Below, in pieces: positions 43,499 to 54,056 of a stretch of DNA of 64,000 nucleotides. The DNA comes from Candidatus Binatia bacterium (GTDB taxonomy: Bacteria > Desulfobacterota > Binatia > HRBIN30), in the NCBI GenBank assembly GCA_026415395.1, contig JAOAHD010000003.1, positions 199,195-263,194 of the forward strand, in the 5' to 3' direction. Positions within the stretch are counted from its first letter, which is position 1. Each line of letters starts with the position of its first letter. A program made the position numbers and the translations under genes. Below the pieces are notes generated by a model. It was not told where the DNA came from. It saw nothing but the letters and a program-made list of their open reading frames with translations, and ran no database searches.

Positions 43499-44404
43499 TC
43501 AACGGCTCATCTGCACGGCTCGGTACACTGGCGGCGTTTCGAGGAGACAATGATCTGTGGGGCGCGGGAACGAGCCCAGAGGAAACCGAGAGCGCAAACT
43601 GCGGAAGCTTTCGAGAGCGCCGTCGTGCTCGAATCCGAACAAGACCAAAACCACGTGCCGGCCTTCCCTTCGCTCGCGACTCGCGTAAGTCTCGATCCGC
43701 TCAAGCCCTGGGATCTCGTTGAATCGTTGTTCGTCAAACCAGCGGTAAAACTCCTCCAGACGCTCATCCTCCACTTCGAACGCCTGCGCGAAGTAGCTGA
43801 GATTGTCGCGGTCGACCGCGCTTTTGCCTCTCGCCTGGTGGTGATGTTCGTGGTGTTGCGCTCCTGCCCCATGGTGCGACGATGCCGAGGCGTCGTTGTT
43901 GCTTTCCTTTAGGCTGGTGAGGTAGGCCACCAGATCGGCAAGTTGCTCCAGCGTCATGTCTGGATATTCCGGCATGCGTGAGTGCCCGTTTTCGTCGAGG
44001 TAGCCGGGCCCTTCGACCAGGATCGCGTTAGGATTCACAATGGCTTCCGCAAAGTATCCCGGCGGGTGGTGGCTACCCATGCCGGTGAGCTCTGGGCCTA
44101 CGAAGTACGAGCTATCCCCACCTGGGGGGAAGTCCTCGCCGGCAATCTTGTGGCATTTGTAACACCCGAACTCGACAAAGGTCTTGCGTCCGGCCGCAGG
44201 ATCCCCGGGCGCAGGTGAGAACTTCCAGCCAGGCGGTGTGCCGCCCCACGCATGGAGCTGCTCCATGCTGACTCGTAGCCCAGGAGGCGCTGCTTCTCTC
44301 ATCGGCCGATCGAGTCTCTGCTGGGGCTCGCTGCGCTCGCAAGCAAGCAGGGATAATGACAGCACTCCAGCACCAAAATAAATTCTAAAAGCTTTCCACC
44401 GCAT
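43499..44404 (-). CDS. c-type cytochrome lipoprotein with His-rich segment
   Basis: A lipobox ending LSLLAC puts the lipid on C22. The single heme motif is CYKCH (C81-H85), with the axial Met probably among the methionines at about 152-160 (HSRMPEYPDMTLEQ). A hydrophilic stretch near 170-190 is very rich in histidine (SSHHGAGAQHHEHHHQ), suggesting metal binding. The last 100 residues are an unassigned domain. The ATG at 44404 has GGAGGTGAG upstream. It is the last gene of the MbnP/MbnH operon, 103 nt after mbnH, and may be the electron partner of the di-heme enzyme. That role is inference. Confidence 0.85.
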   Translation of the reverse strand: MRWKAFRIYFGAGVLSLSLLACERSEPQQRLDRPMREAAPPGLRVSMEQLHAWGGTPPGWKFSPAPGDPAAGRKTFVEFGCYKCHKIAGEDFPPGGDSSYFVGPELTGMGSHHPPGYFAEAIVNPNAILVEGPGYLDENGHSRMPEYPDMTLEQLADLVAYLTSLKESNNDASASSHHGAGAQHHEHHHQARGKSAVDRDNLSYFAQAFEVEDERLEEFYRWFDEQRFNEIPGLERIETYASRERREGRHVVLVLFGFEHDGALESFRSLRSRFPLGSFPRPTDHCLLETPPVYRAVQMSR

Positions 44405-44507
44405 CGCCAGCTCACCTCCGCCCGTGCTTAGCATCTAGCTGCTCTCCGTTGGGTGTTGGTGCTCATCCGAGGCTTCGTCGCTTGCGACGCGAGACTGGGC
44501 GCGGTCT

Positions 44508-45857
44508 TTATGGGGCAATCTCCGGAGGGCAGCCCGTCAATACGGCATGCACACCCTGCAACAGTTCGTCCACGGTGACGTCACCATCCCCGCTCGGATC
44601 AGCCGCTAAACACTGCGCCAGAGGACCCGTCCCTAGTGCCACGCGCACCGCTCCTACGAGTTCGTTGACCAGCACGGTTCCGTCGTAGTCACAGTCGCTG
44701 ATGCAGGGCCAGACGCGGAAGGGATCGCTAAAACGCGGGTCGGTGGTAAAGCGTTCATCGTCGAGCGATCGTAAGAATGCCAGCAGTTGCTGCTTCTCTT
44801 CGTCAGTCAGCACGAAGCCACGCACAAAGTTGCTCTTATAGGGGTTTTTCGACCCATCGCCCGCGTAAGGGCCCGAGTGGATCGTGCGACCACCGGCAGC
44901 GTAGTGGTCGATCACTTCCTCCAGTGTCGCGATGCTGCCGTCGTGCATGTAAGGCGCGGTGTAACTCAAATTGCGCAGCGTCGGTGCCTTAAAGCGCCCC
45001 ATGTCACTCGGGATGCGGGTGATCTCGAACAGACCCGTATTATCCGGAGGGTACGCGCCCTGGCCATCAATATTGTAAAGCCCATTATTTTGAAAGGAGG
45101 TTTCGTCAAACGGGTTCCCTTCGTGGGTAACAGAAGCCGTGAAGTTGAAGCCGCCGTGGCAGTGGAAGCACTCCAGCCGCTCCGAGAAGAACAACCGGCC
45201 TCCGAAAAATGCGTCCTCGGATAACGCAGCGTCGTCGAGCCCTTGCACGTAGCGGTCGTAGGCCGTGTTCCCCGAAAGCAGAGTCCGCTCGAAGCTTGCG
45301 ATTGCTTTCACCACGTTGCCCAGCGAGACCGGGCGTGCCTCACCGGGAAATGCTTCTGCGAACAAGCGCTGGTACCGAAGATCAGCCTGTAACCGGGCGA
45401 GAAACTCGTCTTCTTTACCAGCGAGGCCGAGCTCCACGGGCCGCTCGTTGAACATGGGAACCAACATTTGGCGCTCGAGGGAGTCCAAGAGGGGATTCGC
45501 CCAGCCTAGGGCCGTAGCATAGGCGACATTGGCCAAGCTCATCGCGCTTCGAGGGTGGACTTCACCCGTGGATCCAACGGCTCGGGCACGCCCATCGGTG
45601 AATGCCTTGGACTGTTGGTGGCACGACGCGCACGACTGCGTGAGGTTGCCCGATAGCCGGACATCGTAAAACAGGAACCGACCGAGCGCGACCTTCTCTT
45701 GGCTCATGGGATTGTCGGACGGCACTTTCGGTTTGGGAAAGCCAATGGGCAGATCGAACACGTAGTCGGAGGCCGGGTCGCCCTGTGCTGCCCATGGCAA
45801 CAAGGCAACGATGCCAGCAATGACGTTTAGCCATTTGATTAACGGCTTCAGCGACAC
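44508..45857 (-). CDS. mbnH: Di-heme cytochrome c peroxidase-like protein MbnH, with EF-hand doublet
   Basis: A periplasmic di-heme enzyme of the bacterial cytochrome c peroxidase/MauG family, MbnH branch. A signal peptide is followed by two heme motifs, CASCH (C76-H80) and CFHCH (C230-H234), and by [19 protein letters not shown], typical of the branch. MbnH of methanotrophs oxidises a tryptophan of its partner MbnP to kynurenine, creating a copper site. Residues about 385-445 are an added calcium-binding doublet ([24 protein letters not shown]), not part of the usual enzyme. It follows mbnP by 10 nt. MbnH rather than another peroxidase is supported by that neighbour. Confidence 0.85.
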
Positions 45858-45867
45858 CAGTCGTCTC

Positions 45868-46893
45868 TCAATGCTGTGGAGCTACCCGGAAAAACTTCTG
45901 CAAAGCTGGCACGGGGAGCCCAGTAACGAAGTCGACCCCGAGGTTCTGCAAGATTGCTTGGCAATCACTGTCTCCGGGATCCGACATGCACCCTGGCGGC
46001 GTGCCCGCAACGTTTGCGTTCAAATCAGAATTCTCTAGCAGGGCGGCCAAGTCCGCTACGATTGCGTCGTGCTGCAAAGAGAAGGGGCGCAAAATAATTT
46101 CGGCGCGGTTGGGTCGTGCGCATCCACCGACGACTCCCGGTTGTGCGTAGAAACAGCCAGTGGATCCCAAGTGGACCCGATAGTTGTCGAAGGCGGTGTC
46201 CACCCGTAAGAACTTGTATCCGGCCTGCCAACTCCAAAACATGGCGGTGAGGCTGAGCGGCGGCGGTGCCACGGACGCATCCCCGTGGTTGAGGCGAAAA
46301 GGCACTCCGAGCACAAACCGGATTCCGTTGTAATCGCCGGGGGCCACTCGACCCCGAATGGTGTCATTGGTGAGCACCGTGCCATTCACGCACGGCGATG
46401 TTTTGTTTTCAAAGTCGATCAAGGCCACGTCCTCTAATTGCCAAATACCGTCTTGGTCGAGAAGTACGGGAACCTCACGAGCATCCGCAGTCAAGAGGCG
46501 AACGTTGGAAACGTAGAAACGAAAATCGGATGGCGTAAACTCGCTACCACCTTGCCCAACCCCATTATACGTTGCCCCGCACTGAAAGGGCTCATCCCCC
46601 ACTTGCCCTCGAAACCGGATTTCCACCCGCTGGAAGACGCAGCCCTCGAGGATGTTGTTAACTCCGGCGACGAGTTCGTCCACTGTGACCTCGCCGTCGC
46701 TATTCCGATCTCCCACGCATTGGCCTAGTGCGTCGAAGCGGTACGGGAGTGATTGGCCATCCGATGGTCGCCCAGCGGCTAAGGCAGTCAACAACAGGGA
46801 GAGGGCGACGGCGCCTCGCATTCTTCGCTGCGTTCCTTCTGTCCTCGCTGTCCTTCTCTCCATCTCTTCCGTCCTCCATGTTGGGTTTCTCAT
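45868..46893 (-). CDS. mbnP: Metallo-mystery-pair four-Cys protein MbnP, with N-terminal EF-hand motif
   Basis: The protein carries the MbnP family pattern: [34 protein letters not shown], and the hallmark [18 protein letters not shown], plus scattered cysteines (FQCG, SPCVN, GCFYAQ, GGCARP). In the described system the di-heme partner MbnH modifies a Trp in MbnP, which then binds copper. Here an EF-hand loop ([12 protein letters not shown]) sits near the N terminus, before the MbnP domain. The start at 46893 follows a GGGGA and the upstream stop by 13 nt; a later ATG at 46821 begins nearer the hydrophobic signal segment. Periplasmic or outer-surface location is inferred. It is coupled to mbnH. 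Confidence 0.85.
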
Positions 46894-46906
46894 CTCTGGT
46901 TCCCCT

Positions 46907-47491
46907 TTAGGGGGCAGCACCGTCTAGAATCCATTGTGCGATCGCCCTGCGCTCTTGTTTCGATAGCGGGGGGAGACCAAGAGGCATGGGGCTTCCGTAT
47001 TCTGGGGGCACAACCGGCTCCAGCTTAACCCACAGAAAGCTCATCTCGAGGTCCCGAGGCTGTACGCGCCGAAGCCCACGCAGGCTGGCGGCGAAGTTGG
47101 TTGGCGCCGCACCCACGAGCTGTGCCCAGGCGTGCTGGGACTCCAAGTCGAGCCCTGCCACGGGCGCATGGGCCGAATGGCAGCCGCTGTGAGCGCAGGA
47201 AGGCTTGAAGATTCGCTCCTGCAGCTCCCGGAACGTATAACCGCTGGACTGCGAACAACCCTCGAGTGCTGCCAGCACGGCAGCGACAATTTCGTCAACC
47301 GACACGATACCATTTTGGTCGCGATCAGCGGCCGGACACAGCAATACGTCACTGCCGAGTGCAATCCGTACCCCCGTTACGATTTCATCGATGGTCACGG
47401 CTCCGTTTCCATCACAGTCGCCCGCACAAGCTCCTGCTCCGCGTGGGCCGAGCAGCACCACAGTGAGGATGCTTGCGGCGAGAAGCCTCAT
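46907..47491 (-). CDS. Secreted EF-hand doublet protein with a CX4CH cytochrome-like domain
   Basis: A signal peptide (about 1-20) is followed by the calcium-loop doublet (GDCDGNGAVTIDE, DRDQNGIVSVDE). Then comes a cytochrome-like domain of the type FRELQERIFKPSCAHSGCHS, continuing AGLDLESQHAWAQLVG and GSPMPLGLPPLS...IAQWILDGA. The heme-site candidate reads C-AHSG-CH, a CX4CH spacing instead of the usual CX2CH, a variant seen in related planctomycete and myxobacterial proteins. The start at 47491 is chosen for the signal peptide; an ATG at 47554 overlaps the upstream stop and would couple translation. It lies in the MbnP/MbnH operon. Confidence 0.75.
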   Translation of the reverse strand: MRLLAASILTVVLLGPRGAGACAGDCDGNGAVTIDEIVTGVRIALGSDVLLCPAADRDQNGIVSVDEIVAAVLAALEGCSQSSGYTFRELQERIFKPSCAHSGCHSAHAPVAGLDLESQHAWAQLVGAAPTNFAASLRGLRRVQPRDLEMSFLWVKLEPVVPPEYGSPMPLGLPPLSKQERRAIAQWILDGAAP

Positions 47492-47546
47492 GGGCGGCTT
47501 CGCAAGCTGGAGCAGATTCAAAAGTTCGAGGGCAAGCCAAGGTCGG

Positions 47547-48200
47547 CTACTCATGATCGTGGCCGGCATCGACGACCTTTAGCCGCAGCGTGTAGGTCGC
47601 CGATGGGTCGTAAACGGACCCAGCCGCCACGAGACGCAGCCTTACCTTCGGAGTGGCAGTTGCCGGATCCACCCCACCGGGAAGAATCAGTTGCCAGCTC
47701 ACATGGGTGTGGAAGGGAGCGACTCCCAGCAGTGCACGGCTTCCCGCCATGCTCAGCTCGGTGCCCTCAACTTGGATCCGCACGCCTTCGTCGATTTCCA
47801 CAATCTCGATCTCCACTTCGGTGCCGGGCAGGAGCGGCTGCAAGTGTTCCTCCGCCTCGTCTGCGCCCACCGTTTCGAACGCCGGTGAGGTGCCGCTGTA
47901 TACGATCAAGCCTCCCTCGCAACTGTCCCCCACGCCGCCAAGACACTGTTCCTCGGTCAGCTCCGCCGCCCCTTGATCGAAGTCGAAGTGGGCCATGATT
48001 TCGCCTCCGCCGCCATGGTGGGAGCCGATCAGGATGTGAGCGTGTGCTGCTTGTCTTGGGGTAGGAGTTGGGGAGGGCAGGCGGTGTTCAGTTGGTGTCG
48101 GTGACGCGGTGGGATTACTGAGTGGTCCGTTTTCACGATCGTCTCCGCAGCCGACTGCGAACAGTAAGGAAAGAACTGCCCAAAAGTGCTTCGAGTTCAC
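47547..48200 (-). CDS. Lipoprotein with His-containing motifs, function unknown
   Basis: A lipobox ending LLFAVGC (C18) begins a 217-residue lipoprotein. A Thr/Pro-rich linker (about 25-50) is followed by HAHILIGSHHGGGG and, at the C terminus, VVDAGHDHE. Two Cys residues (CLGG, SCEGG) lie mid-protein. I do not recognise the domain. The histidine clusters at both ends, and its place as first gene of the MbnP/MbnH operon, suggest metal handling at the outer membrane. Start is GTG at 48200, with AGGAGG nearby; the longer frame to 48425 has no support. Confidence 0.7.
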   Translation of the reverse strand: MNSKHFWAVLSLLFAVGCGDDRENGPLSNPTASPTPTEHRLPSPTPTPRQAAHAHILIGSHHGGGGEIMAHFDFDQGAAELTEEQCLGGVGDSCEGGLIVYSGTSPAFETVGADEAEEHLQPLLPGTEVEIEIVEIDEGVRIQVEGTELSMAGSRALLGVAPFHTHVSWQLILPGGVDPATATPKVRLRLVAAGSVYDPSATYTLRLKVVDAGHDHE

Positions 48201-48624
48201 CGCGCTCCTCCTGCGCCGGCTTCCATCGCCAAGCATCCGGGAGCCGGCAATTGGGCAGTTTGTCGCACCCATAAGGCTGGCCGACGCCCATTTCGCGGGT
48301 GCATCCCGCCAGCCCCAGCCCGCGCTCCGGGCGCGACACGGGCATATTGATTGGCATAGGGGACGGAACATCGCCTTTGCACTCGAAACGCTTGGGCTAC
48401 GTGACGACCCTTGAGGCTGCGTCATGGAGCTCAGCAGGAAACGGTCCGTTGCATAGCTGCCGACAGCACCGTTTGCTCGGCTGGCCTCGGATCAGCGGTG
48501 AGGCGCGCAGAGGCTGGGCGCCGGTGCCCCCGTAGGAACCTGTCCGCAATGGGACACTCCAGTCCAGAGAAGAGGGTGATGTCTCGCGCCGATGAGCGTC
48601 ACATCGCCTGCGCGCTGTTGCAGA
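48201..48624. other. Intergenic region upstream of the MbnP/MbnH operon
   Basis: This 424-nt stretch separates the operon start from a pseudogene end and should hold the operon promoter. I see no coding potential that survives inspection, no RNA gene and no clear hairpin. Short frames here are shadows. Confidence 0.4.
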
Positions 48625-49587
48625 CTAACGTTCTCCCGCATGGGTATTAGGCGAATGCTCCCCTTTCCAGATCTCCGTGTCCGGATGAAACGCCGACCAG
48701 GTAAACCAGTAGGCTACGAGTGAAGGGGGAACCTCCCCCCGGCTTCTCTGCTGTTACCCGTGCTGGGCGAGCGTTCCGCTGGTACTCGATACGGAGGTGA
48801 AGGCCCCAATTTTGTCCGGGAGGCTTTCCCTTAAAGCGGCCAGAGGATAGGCCTTGGCCGCACCGTTGACCCGCACTCCGAGAACCCACTCCTTTGCGGG
48901 TAGTCAAGCGTCCAGCCTGCGGATCGGGAACATAATCTCGGCCGACCGCCGGTAAGTGTCCTACGGGTCCCACCTGTAGTCGCGGCTATAACCGGTGTCA
49001 TCCGAAAGCACCAAAGTCTCCGGATACGGCCCGCGCCAGTCCTCCCAGGTGGTGAGCTCGCTGGGAATACTGCGAAGCCCCACGCCGGCATGCTCTCTCG
49101 TTGCGGCTGTTTCCGCCAGTTGTGACCAAAGACTCTCAGTTTGATGATTGTACAATAGGACGTTGCTCTGAAAGAGCTTGCCGGAAACGCCGAAGGTGAG
49201 GCCGGAGGAGCCGACTCAATGATCGAACGTAACCGTACCCTCCGTGAGCGGATAATAGGTGACCACAACAGCCTTGCCCCAAATTTCGTCATTGACCACT
49301 TCGTGCTAGTTCAAGATGCGGATTGGGTAGGCTTTTGCCTCCCGGCCGCTTGCCAGGCCCACGACTTCATCGTGGGGTTCAAGAAAGTCTGCTTCGGCTG
49401 CCCGGATAAATTTCGGCCTTGTCAGATCAGAAATTCCGTCCTTTGGAGACCCACCCGAGAGGATCTCTTCCGGCCGTAGCGTGTGCCGGGAAAGCTCGAA
49501 GCCAAACAGGAACATCGCTGCTGGGAGCACGATCCCGAATAAGAGCCATCTGTGCCAACAATGCACCTTCTCGCGCTTGTATACCAT
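48625..49587 (-). pseudogene. DUF3179-family protein with five in-frame stops
   Basis: One minus-strand frame from 49587 to 48625 reads as a DUF3179 protein: a membrane helix (LLFGIVLPAAMFLFGFEL), PKDGISDLTRPKFIRAAEAD, AKAYPIRILN-stop-HEVVND, TFGVSGKLFQSNVLLYN, QTESLWSQL, TTWEDWRGPYPETLVLSDDTGY, stop-LPAKEWVLGVRVNG and AYWFTWSAFHPDTE. It is broken by TAG (49306-49308), TGA (49216-49218), TAG (48961-48963), TGA (48904-48906) and TAA (48754-48756). No frameshift is seen. Two stops sit where homologues have Trp (NWHE) and Arg (RLPAKE), consistent with single G-to-A or C-to-T changes. The product is not expressed as a full protein. Confidence 0.82.
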
Positions 49588-49646
49588 ACCTAAACCCAGA
49601 ACCGCACCGAAAAGTTCCCGGGCTCAAACCACGAGACATGGAAGGA

Positions 49647-50420
49647 CTATGGATCCGCGATCTGCCTCGGTTGTCCAAATGTGTGGACGAACTGCTCGCG
49701 TGGCATGGAACTGGCGAGCGCGCAGTTAACGTTGCCGAGTATGTGACTCCGAACCGTCACGTCCCCGTTCGTGCGTACGGTGAACGCCCCGATCCGCTCG
49801 CCCCCCGGCGAGAGGCGGAGCGGGAAACGCCGGCAAATGACTTTGCCAGCAGGACCCTCGTAGCCGGTCAGTGTGGTTACCACACCACCGAGGTCGCCCA
49901 GCGTCGCGCGAATCGGCCGCAGGCAGGCTCGCGAAGATATCGACAGGGTTCTCGAAAGAAACCCTTCCTTTGCTCCGTTCGTAGCTCCTTAGTTCCACGA
50001 TGCGATCAGATCGGACTGCGACGGCAAGTTCCCGGCGTCGGCTCGCCGGACATCATCAGCGTACGTTGCAAGGAGGTCGGGCGGCGGTGAACGGAATAAG
50101 CTGGTGACGGCTATGAGAACTACCGCTGAAATGGCGGCGGCAAATACGACGTACCACCGGGGAGAGAGCCGTACTGGAGCTGCTGAATCACGCTCGTCCG
50201 GGCTGTTTAGCGCTCTCAAGACCCTGGCGCGCAGTTCAGGCGGCACTGCGTACTTGGCCGCGTGGCTGCGGACGAGTGAACGCACCCGGTGGTGGGTCAC
50301 GCGTGCTTCGGCGCAGGACGTGCAGGCCCGAACGGGCGCGTCCGTCTCGGCCTGCTCCGGCGGGTCGAGAGCTTGATCGACATGGGCCGCGATGAGGTCT
50401 TGGTAAGTGCGACAGTCCAT
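49647..50420 (-). pseudogene. Anti-sigma factor-like gene with zinc-finger N terminus, two frameshifts
   Basis: From ATG 50420 the frame gives a zf-HC2-type anti-sigma start (MDCRTYQDLIAAHVDQAL, later CTSCAEARVTHH), a membrane helix (YVVFAAAISAVVLIAVTSL), and DLIASWN before a stop near 49989. One added base there continues as LRSYERSKGRVSFENPVDIFASLPA. A further shift near 49915-49922 (removing one base) continues as PIRATLGDLGGVVTTLTGYEGPAG...MPREQFVHTFGQPRQ, ending at 49647. It is the natural partner of the sigma factor immediately upstream (overlap region 50420-50426), and both are broken. Confidence 0.72.
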
Positions 50421-50425
50421 TTTCG

Positions 50426-50991
50426 TTATCTCGAGCGTAGCTGTCTTCGCGCTTGCGCGTGTGGCAGCAAAGCTTGGCGCAGTATGTGGCGGGCCCAGGA
50501 CAGGCGCGAACGTATCGTTCCCAAGGGACACCCCACCACGGCGGCAGCCTCCTCGTACGTAAGCTCATCAATATCGATTAAGACCACCACTTCACGGGAA
50601 TGCTGGGGGAGAGTGTTCAGGACCGCTTGGACTTTTTCACTTAGGGATTTGAAAGAAAACAATTCAGCCGCGTCCCCCCACCTTGCCCCTGATGGACGCG
50701 GCTTTCGAGCTCGAAGATAAGCTCGTTCGGCTCGGCCGAATCAAACAATCTTCTTTGCGAACGGTAGCGATTGCGAACGATGTTGCACAGGAGGGTGGGC
50801 AGCCGAGCTTTGCAATTACTCCCGGGTATGAAGCGATGCCACGATCGGTAGGCGCGGAGGTAAGTCGCCCGCAATACGTCCGCGGCATCTTCGCGATCGG
50901 CGCAGAGGTACAAGGCCGTCGTATGTAGCGTGTCCATGAGCGGAACCGCCGTCACTTCAAAGCTCCCGCGCTTTGCCTCGCATCTTTTCAC
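50426..50991 (-). pseudogene. ECF-type sigma factor, single frameshift
   Basis: Region 2 is clear in one frame (TALYLCADREDAADVLRATYLRAYRSWHRF) and region 4 in another (LNTLPQHSREVVVLIDIDELTYEEAAAVVGCPLGTIRSRLSWAR). The frames join if one C is added to the CCCCCC run at 50674-50679 (plus strand), giving QGQGGGDAAELFSFKSLSEKVQAVL. The total length of about 188 residues fits ECF sigma factors. An anti-sigma remnant follows directly, the usual arrangement. As sequenced it makes only a region-2 fragment. Confidence 0.8.
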
Positions 50992-51840
50992 TCAGAACGG
51001 AGTACCATCCGATTCATCGACCTGGAAATAACCCATCTGGCCCCGCGAACGTTCCCGTGGCGCGGAGGATAAGTCAGAAGGTGAACAACGAGTGGTGAGA
51101 GATCAGTGTGAACAACCGCGTTGTCCGCGCTCTGCTGAGGTGAAGACGTCTGCCATAGGGCGCATCACGAGGAACAGCACAATTGCTCGTAGCGCTCGTA
51201 AGGTATTGACCCGGATGAAGATTGCGTGAGCCAGCGTCATGAAAAGATGCTGACGAGGCTGCGCCGGGCTCGCGCCCGCGGGCAGCTTGCTGCGGAAGTA
51301 AGGCTGCTGTGAGGCGATCCCGGTGGTAACGCTTCGCTTCATCGGAGGAAACACGGTGCCGCACTCCAGTCGAAGAAAAGGGCAAAGCCGGTGACCGTTC
51401 TGGCTTCAGGGACGTGCTGCCGGGAATCGTCGTGCTTTTTGCCTTAAGCGGTGCCGGGTTCGCGCGCTGACCTAGTAGTTCCGCTGTAAACTCCGAACCC
51501 ACTCCGAGTATACCTTCCAACGCCCACCGCTGAGCAAATGCGCAGCAAGCTCTGGCAGCGGAGGCGAATCACAAAGGCCTTCCTTCGTGCTCAACAGGTC
51601 GACGTTTGTCAGCGCGGCTGAGAATGCTCGGTAACGGAATCCGCTATCCGCAGCTAAGTTGCGACGTCGCCATCGACGCTACCCTTGCTGAGCGCATGGG
51701 CAGTGGGATTCGAGCCGACAGACAACGGTGGACACCGTGGGCAGGCATCAGCACCGCGTTGCTACGCAGGTCTTTCATACAGAGGACCCCGCGCTGTTTT
51801 GCTGGCCGCCACAGTGCGCGTCGAGGAAACCCAGCCAACG
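50992..51840. other. Region without a recognisable intact gene
   Basis: This 850-nt stretch lies beside the broken sigma/anti-sigma pair. Several short frames exist on both strands, but none shows a fold or motif I know. One minus-strand frame (51103-51354) contains a hydrophobic stretch (RALRAIVLFLVM) that could be a remnant of a membrane protein. I see no tRNA, repeat or mobile-element end. It looks like eroded coding sequence plus the sigma gene upstream region. Confidence 0.35.
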
Positions 51841-52113
51841 CGCAGTCCGCAGGTGGAGAAGAACCTCCTGTACTTGGATGAACTCTTGCTCGCAGTGCCA
51901 TCGATACGCAAACTACCCAAACTACCTAAGGAAGATGTGAAGTCTAATGGCGCGATGGTCTTCCCTAGCCCCTGCGGGGGAAGCCGAGAGACATGTGCCC
52001 GGGGCGGCCCCTCCGGCATGGGAGTTAGCAGGATAAACGGAAAATGGATTGGGCCGGCGAGCTACGGAGCTCCGAGGCGCGTTTTCCCGATCCTCGTCGG
52101 AGCGAAACGGTAA
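51841..52113 (+). pseudogene. Possible SYLF (YSC84-type) domain remnant
   Basis: In one plus-strand frame a stretch of about 80 residues resembles the end of a SYLF lipid-binding domain: VEKNLLYLDELL, then GAMVFPS, RGGPSGMGVSRINGKWIGPASY, and FPILVGAKR before a stop. The usual continuation past this point is missing and no clear start with a signal peptide is present upstream. The match is by eye and partial. It fits the pattern of decayed genes in 48.6-52.2 kb. Confidence 0.35.
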
Positions 52114-52295
52114 CAGCGGGACGCGTAATCCAGAGCTTCGACCCTCCCATACACCCCCCTCGCCTATTCCAATCCCACGCTACGTAGCAGGCAAGGACTG
52201 TGCAGGTTGTTGCAGCGATGGGTGGTTGTGGGTTTTGGCCAGGTTCAATGAAGGCTCCCTTGCTCTGAATGACGGAGAAGTGTTTAGGAAGTGTC

Positions 52296-54056
52296 ATGGC
52301 AAAAGAAGTACTGCGGATTGCGAACTGCAGCGGGTTTTACGGCGACCGACTGAGCGCAGCGAGGGAAATGGTAGAGGGCGGTCCGATCGACGTGCTAACT
52401 GGCGACTATCTTGCCGAGCTCACCTTGATGATCCTCTTCAAGGATCGCCAAAAAAACCCGCAGGCTGGTTATGCACGCACATTCTTGCGCCAAATGGAAG
52501 AAGTTCTCGGCACGTGCGTGGAGCGCGGCATTAAAGTGGTCGCCAACGCCGGTGGCCTGAATCCGGCTGGTTTGGCCCAGCAAATGTGCGAACTTGCACA
52601 CCGCCTCGGCCTTCGTGTTCGCATCGCCCACATTGAGGGCGACGATCTCCTGCCTCGGCTTAACGAGCTTCAGGCCGAAGGGCATGAATTCCGGCACCTC
52701 GACAAGGGAATACCGCTACGCGAGCTGCAAGCGCAGGTTGTTACGGCAAATGCTTACCTTGGCGGCTGGGGGATTGCGGAGGCGTTGCGCCGCGGAGCCG
52801 ACGTGGTGATTTGCCCGCGTGTGACCGACGCGGCGTTGGTGGTCGGTCCGGCAGCTTGGCATTTCAATTGGTCCCGCGAAGATTGGGATCGCTTGGCCGC
52901 TGCTGTCGTGGCTGGTCACATTATCGAGTGCGGGGCCCAGTGCACGGGTGGAAACTACTCTTTTTTCCGCGAGGTCCCCGACATCGAACGCATCGGCTTT
53001 CCGATTGCGGAGATGTACCCGGACGGTTCTTTCGTCATCACGAAGCACCCTGGGACCGGTGGTTTGGTGTCTACGGATACCGTACTCGCCCAACTGCTTT
53101 ATGAAATTCAGGGACCGCGCTACTTGAACCCCGACGTCACAGCTCGGTTCGACACGATCTCCCTCTCTCAAGAGGGCGAACATCGCGTGCGGGTCACGGG
53201 TGTACGAGGTGAGCCACCGCCAGCCACGACGAAAGTCTGCATCAATTACCTTGGCGGGTATCGTAACTCAGTGACCTTTGTGCTCACGGGCCTGGATATC
53301 GAGGAAAAGGCCGAGGTGGCCGAAAAGACGTTGTGGTCCCTCGTGGGCGGCAAAGAGCGTTTCGCCGAAGTTCACGTAGACTTAATCCGCTGGGATCGGC
53401 CGAACCCGCGGCGCAACGAAGAGGCGTTTGCTTACCTCACGATTGCAGTGAAGGACCCCGACCCCTCCAAGGTTGGGCGAGCGTTTACCAACAAAGCGAT
53501 CGAAATGGCGCTGGCGAATTACCCGGGCTTTTTTGTCACCAGCCCCCCGACAGACGCGAGCCCCTACGGCGTTTTCTGGCCAACGGTCATTCCTTCGTCT
53601 TTGGTTCCTCACCGCGTAGTCCTCGAGGGCGAGACGATCGACGTGCCCCCGGTCGAATCCGCCGCGGCCCCGAAGGTCGAACCGCCACCAGTGCATTTGC
53701 CACCTCCTCCGGAGGGCGAGGTCGTGCAAGCCCCGCTCGGGCTGATCGCCGGGGCGCGCTCAGGCGACAAAGGTGGGAACGCCAACGTGGGGCTGTGGAC
53801 GCGACAGCCGGAAGCCTACTCTTGGCTGCGCGAGTACCTCACCACCGAGCGCTTTCGCGAACTAGTGCCGGAGGCGCGTCCGCTCGAGATCGAACGCTAC
53901 GAGTTCCCGAACTTGCGGGCCTTGAATTTTGTTGTTCGTGGTTTGCTGGGCGACGGTGTGGCGGCCTCGACCCGCATGGATCCGCAAGCCAAGAGCCTCG
54001 GCGAGTACGTGCGGGCCAAGCTGGTAGAGATTCCGCGGGCGTTGTTGCCGCAGTGA
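52296..54056 (+). CDS. AtuA-like acyclic terpene utilisation family protein (DUF1446)
   Basis: A 586-residue protein. The N-terminal DUF1446 region is clear from ANCSGFYGDRLSAAREM, VLTGDYLAELTLMIL, VANAGGLNPAGLA and TGGNYSFFREVPD. The C-terminal part (from LGLIAGARSGDKGGNANVGLW, about 488) is the AtuA-type C-terminal domain. In Pseudomonas AtuA belongs to the citronellol/geranyl-CoA pathway, but close relatives occur in many lipid degraders and the reaction is not settled. The ATG at 52296 has AGGAA 5 nt upstream, and the frame to 52269 is less likely. It leads a small plus-strand group with the zinc-ribbon protein. Confidence 0.9.
   Translation: MAKEVLRIANCSGFYGDRLSAAREMVEGGPIDVLTGDYLAELTLMILFKDRQKNPQAGYARTFLRQMEEVLGTCVERGIKVVANAGGLNPAGLAQQMCELAHRLGLRVRIAHIEGDDLLPRLNELQAEGHEFRHLDKGIPLRELQAQVVTANAYLGGWGIAEALRRGADVVICPRVTDAALVVGPAAWHFNWSREDWDRLAAAVVAGHIIECGAQCTGGNYSFFREVPDIERIGFPIAEMYPDGSFVITKHPGTGGLVSTDTVLAQLLYEIQGPRYLNPDVTARFDTISLSQEGEHRVRVTGVRGEPPPATTKVCINYLGGYRNSVTFVLTGLDIEEKAEVAEKTLWSLVGGKERFAEVHVDLIRWDRPNPRRNEEAFAYLTIAVKDPDPSKVGRAFTNKAIEMALANYPGFFVTSPPTDASPYGVFWPTVIPSSLVPHRVVLEGETIDVPPVESAAAPKVEPPPVHLPPPPEGEVVQAPLGLIAGARSGDKGGNANVGLWTRQPEAYSWLREYLTTERFRELVPEARPLEIERYEFPNLRALNFVVRGLLGDGVAASTRMDPQAKSLGEYVRAKLVEIPRALLPQ

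Follow-up and report, generated by a model that had tools for sequence, protein, structure and literature searches.

The DUF3179 gene at positions 48,625 to 49,587 of the window, the whole 64,000-nucleotide stretch of Candidatus Binatia DNA analysed here, is, as judged from its sequence, very probably an ordinary bacterial pseudogene. It lies in a cluster of ECF sigma factor, anti-sigma factor and DUF3179 genes that appears to have fallen out of use in this lineage and to be decaying neutrally. The initial annotation had described a frame broken by five stop codons without any indel, and had considered a C-to-T-biased mutational process or very recent relaxation as possible causes. The case matters little by itself. 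Its lesson is that adjacent genes deserve a look before any mutator is invoked, and that a verdict of 'stops but no indels' reached by eye may conceal two one-base shifts that cancel each other within a variable stretch.

Read on the minus strand from 49,587 to 48,625, the gene is a 320-codon frame in which the five annotated internal stops are all present in addition to the terminal one. Two are TAG codons, at the Trp of the family's NWHE motif (49,306–49,308) and at a Tyr of the family (48,961–48,963). Two are TGA codons, one in a variable family column that is not the selenocysteine position (49,216–49,218) and the other at a family-invariant Arg (48,904–48,906). The fifth, a TAA (48,754–48,756), lies within a segment that seems to be shifted out of frame and is probably not a nonsense codon.

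With X placed at the stops, the read-through protein matches the DUF3179 family (PF11376) at 238.4 bits (E 1.5e-70), against a gathering score of 27, and its family likeness extends from 49,512 to 48,658. The nearest relative (L003 in genome G009) is an intact gene from another family of the same order, with 54% identity over residues 22–309. The strength of the Pfam match and the identity to this intact gene mean that the likeness of the frame to DUF3179 is not due to chance. The gene thus resembles its family in both respects, and differs from it in its destroyed open frame, where relatives such as L003 have open ones, and in a Tyr that replaces the first Cys/Sec of the family motif. The family pattern had been said to persist for over 300 residues, which overstates it: the Pfam match spans profile positions 1–208 of 292, and residues ~262–284 are unlike the nearest relative in frame. 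A tblastn search of 46,900–52,300 found no C-terminal extension of the kind present in L003. No other DUF3179 match occurs in the same genome. At E ≤ 1e-40 the family is matched in 28 of the 148 genomes of the class, its own genome included, and at E ≤ 0.001 in none of the six other genomes of its taxonomic family (two congeners and four others, one of the six being only 85% complete).

Immediately upstream, the minus strand also carries the remnants of an anti-sigma factor gene (49,683–50,420) and an ECF sigma factor gene (50,429–50,964). In the latter, the Sigma70_r2 (1.4e-6) and Sigma70_r4_2 (7.3e-13) domains are matched by Pfam in two different frames, and a shift-tolerant alignment places a single shift near 50,696 with a gain of 91.6 bits. 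The anti-sigma remnant has a weak N-terminal zf-HC2 match under the Pfam cut-off, so its identity is drawn mainly from intact relatives (best 36% identity). Its frame is broken near 50,029 and 49,929–49,937, where the alignment gains 28.6 bits from three shifts or, at a higher penalty, 21.0 bits from two. None of the intact relatives shows a shift (0/9 for the sigma factor and 0/7 for the anti-sigma factor, 0/16 together); the sigma profile was built from the frames of all nine relatives and the anti-sigma profile from those of seven of 11, picked by eye. Unused bacterial genes ordinarily decay by stop codons plus small insertions and deletions. Given its frameshifted neighbours, the DUF3179 gene is part of a decayed three-gene cluster rather than a gene with stops only, and stops and indels are mixed here in the usual way.

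The three genes may have formed one operon. In the proposed course of events, this minus-strand cluster would have lost its use in the lineage, after which neutral decay would have added stops to the DUF3179 gene, a net frameshift to the sigma factor gene and two or more shifts to the anti-sigma factor gene, with substitutions following the usual GC-to-AT mutation bias. Weighing against this explanation are the draft state of the assembly (25 contigs) and the fact that the two proposed shifts of the DUF3179 gene depend on a single variable segment.

That the DUF3179 gene itself carries two cancelling one-base indels is probable from its alignment with the family. In-frame likeness to L003 is lost near residue 262 and regained near residue 284, and between these points it is the -1 frame that reads as the DUF3179 pattern (48,736–48,803, minus strand, with a placement uncertain by up to ~10 bases). 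A profile alignment allowing one-base shifts, built from 15 DUF3179 relatives, puts a one-base loss near 48,794–48,803 and a one-base gain near 48,736. The path with two shifts scores 460.0 bits versus 452.7 without, a gain of 7.3 bits once 9 bits have been charged for each shift. The same alignment yields no gain in 14 of the 15 intact relatives; the remaining one, L029, gains 3.6 bits, and at a penalty of 6 bits it gains 9.6 versus 13.3 in the window gene. A gain this large also arises in 9 of 300 dinucleotide shuffles of the segment and, across six settings, in 8, 16, 7, 24, 1 and 5 shuffles out of 400. In view of the shuffles and the intact-relative controls, the indel pair has moderate support and is considered probable, not proven. 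With two cancelling shifts, the TAA at 48,754–48,756 becomes an out-of-frame codon, which leaves four true nonsense codons. The earlier statement that there is no indel is therefore wrong for the cluster, where two upstream genes carry clear shifts, and probably wrong for the DUF3179 gene as well.

It is unlikely that this gene decayed by substitutions alone and that the 22-residue segment is merely divergent. Such a history is favoured by the variability of the segment within the family, by the shuffles that match the gain (1–24 of 400) and by the choice of the unshifted path once the penalty is raised to 15 bits per shift. Against it, at 9 bits per shift the shifted frame fits the relatives better in all six settings, and one of the presumed shifts falls in a sense-strand G run while the other lies within ~10 bases of one.

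Errors of sequencing or assembly are a very improbable source of the lesions. In favour of errors, the assembly is a draft, and the shifts are single bases of which at least one sits in a homopolymer run. Errors would, however, hardly give a single gene four stops and lost invariant residues between long intact flanking frames (AtuA with 595 amino acids, MbnP with 350), and three adjacent genes are damaged at once.

The substitutions at conserved sites were counted against the 15 relatives used for the profile, which comprise 13 of the 29 class-wide match rows and both of two further loci. Partial matches were left out, as were four longer and more distant rows (L033, L036, L037 and L039), which were added to give a second set of 19. 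The window gene keeps 36 of the 42 columns that are invariant in the 15 relatives and is changed at six, among them the Cys/Sec that opens the CxxC/T motif. For five of the six changes a G:C to A:T transition is the sole one-step route; the sixth allows a transversion as well. Where conservation is at least 85%, 12 of 75 columns are changed, with seven G:C to A:T transitions, one ambiguous change, one G:C to A:T transversion, one A:T to G:C transition, one Tyr-to-stop transversion and one multi-step change. At 70% conservation the changed columns number 20 of 111: nine G:C to A:T transitions, one ambiguous change, two G:C to A:T transversions, four transversions that keep G+C, one A:T to G:C transition, the stop at the Tyr site, and two multi-step changes; one of the 20 (residue 262) borders the shifted segment. 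The set of 19 gives a similar count, with changes at five of 27 invariant columns (four strictly G:C to A:T transitions, one ambiguous) and at seven of 48 columns conserved at 85% (five such transitions, one ambiguous, one other). Among the in-frame stops, a G:C to A:T transition would account for two of the four, in one case with a transversion as an alternative; the stop at the Tyr site is reached in one step only by a transversion, and the one at a variable column is left unclassed.

Intact relatives were treated in the same way as leave-one-out controls, with close groups left out together. Among the 15, eight deviate at 0–1 of 42–43 invariant columns and seven more distant ones at 3–12 of 45–54; among the 19, nine deviate at none of 27 and ten more distant ones at 1–5 of 29–34. 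Since distant intact genes deviate too, residue losses are no proof of decay on their own. The deviations in intact relatives are mostly of classes other than G:C to A:T transitions. Differences between the window gene and its nearest relative lie mostly at third codon positions, a distribution that resembles the one between intact genes and therefore cannot date the decay. The decay is nonetheless probably recent. The earlier suggestion of recent relaxation accords with the 36 invariant residues kept, with the third-position differences and with the ~7 substitutions per 100 sites that suffice in simulation, but it comes without a date.

In the simulation, random substitutions were introduced into six intact relatives until six invariant columns had changed (900 runs at each of eight settings, with GC-to-AT bias values of our own choice). 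This point is reached after ~0.07 substitutions per site (~7%). The runs produce a mean of 1.6–2.6 nonsense codons over the eight settings, and at least four in 9–26% of runs. Without bias, all six changes are G:C to A:T transitions in 0–0.3% of runs; the share is 1–4% at a bias of 2 or a kappa of 2, and 8–10% at a bias of 3–4 with a kappa of 4. At least five, which is the strict observed count, are reached in 1–5% of runs without bias and in 9–39% with it, the range being 30–39% at a bias of 3–4 and a kappa of 4.

These frequencies bear on the proposal that a special G:C to A:T (C-to-T) process, such as deamination, made stops without indels. All six changes at invariant columns are compatible with such transitions, as are all five with 19 relatives, and the unbiased and weakly biased runs rarely reproduce this. 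The stronger bias settings produce it often enough. Moreover, four of the 12 changes at the 85% level are of another class or multi-step, one stop is a transversion, and the cluster contains indels. Bacterial mutation is also generally AT-biased: passages of Hershberg and Petrov (2010; PMC2936535) describe G/C to A/T transitions as predominating in all five bacterial lineages studied. As this general bias suffices, a special mutator is not needed, and its involvement is highly unlikely. Ordinary pseudogenes under AT-biased mutation, as the bias is presented in those passages, show the same stops, small indels, excess of G:C to A:T changes and lost residues, and no feature was found that sets the window gene apart from them. 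The C-to-T-biased process that had been suggested thus holds in part, in that G:C to A:T transitions are indeed over-represented (five strict cases of six, plus one ambiguous). It does not hold as something peculiar to this gene, given the general bacterial bias and a stop that only a transversion explains. Counting transition types against homologues, as had been recommended, gives the same divided answer, the excess of transitions being accompanied by the changes of other kinds at the 85% level. The suggested C-to-T bias has the right sign but is nothing unusual. A G:C to A:T hypermutation confined to this locus, acting on a dispensable sigma/anti-sigma/DUF3179 block, is less probable still, and is unneeded because general mutation bias explains the pattern at invariant sites well enough.

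Least probable of all, to the point of being dismissible, is a read-through or recoding of the stops that would let a DUF3179 protein be made: 12 of the 29 relatives' class-wide match rows do have one in-frame TGA, in all 12 at the first Cys of CxxC/T, but in the window gene this position is a Tyr codon, the stops (two TAG, two TGA and one TAA) lie elsewhere, and the neighbouring genes are frameshifted too. Two published accounts (PMC9312934; PMC13188914) count DUF3179, with its UxxC/T (or CxxC/T) motif, as a selenoprotein family. Neither form of the motif occurs in the window gene, which has Tyr at the first position and keeps Thr at the second. With the motif codon changed and its TGA codons sitting elsewhere, selenocysteine was rejected, and recoding offers no explanation of the stops. 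Another genetic code was likewise set aside, the three kinds of stop being at unrelated positions and the surrounding frames being long and normal.

The relatives with TGA at the motif (L026, L030, L035, L008, L009, L010 and L040–L045) are as expected of selenocysteine. In four genomes (G015, G036, G049 and G056), two adjoining or overlapping DUF3179 matches correspond to the same part of the query, which hints at a repeat within the gene or at copies in tandem.

The three dead genes sit in a 3.8-kb block (48,426–52,268) that neither congener has between the corresponding pair of flanking genes. The block is flanked by an uncharacterised gene (47,547–48,425) and by AtuA (52,269–54,056), and in the congeners the open frames listed place these flanking genes 48 bases (L060) and 114 bases (L061) apart. 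Neither congener genome has a DNA match to 48,400–50,600 anywhere. The G+C content of the block is similar to that of its surroundings. A direct repeat pairing its two edges was looked for and none was found, 50,960–52,280 is not duplicated elsewhere in the genome, and 48,300–52,300 has no match in the plasmid collection. Flanking DNA aligned with the nearest genomes is 72–74% identical among the matches listed, which makes these genomes too distant for an unsaturated neutral spectrum. If close strains were sequenced, the locus could serve as a neutral marker.

Pfam recognises no family in three open frames between 51,074 and 52,534, and Rfam has nothing in 47,000–52,400 up to an E-value of 1. 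Positions 50,970–52,268 thus make up ~1.3 kb without a Pfam or Rfam family found, absent here in both congeners. A relative of the flanking AtuA gene in another genome (L049, G005:C327:5521-7287) contains one in-frame TGA. Elsewhere in the window, genes for a cytochrome c, a MauG-type di-haem peroxidase and MbnP adjoin one another (43,499–46,920), and the pair of peroxidase and MbnP is kept in both congeners among the matches listed.
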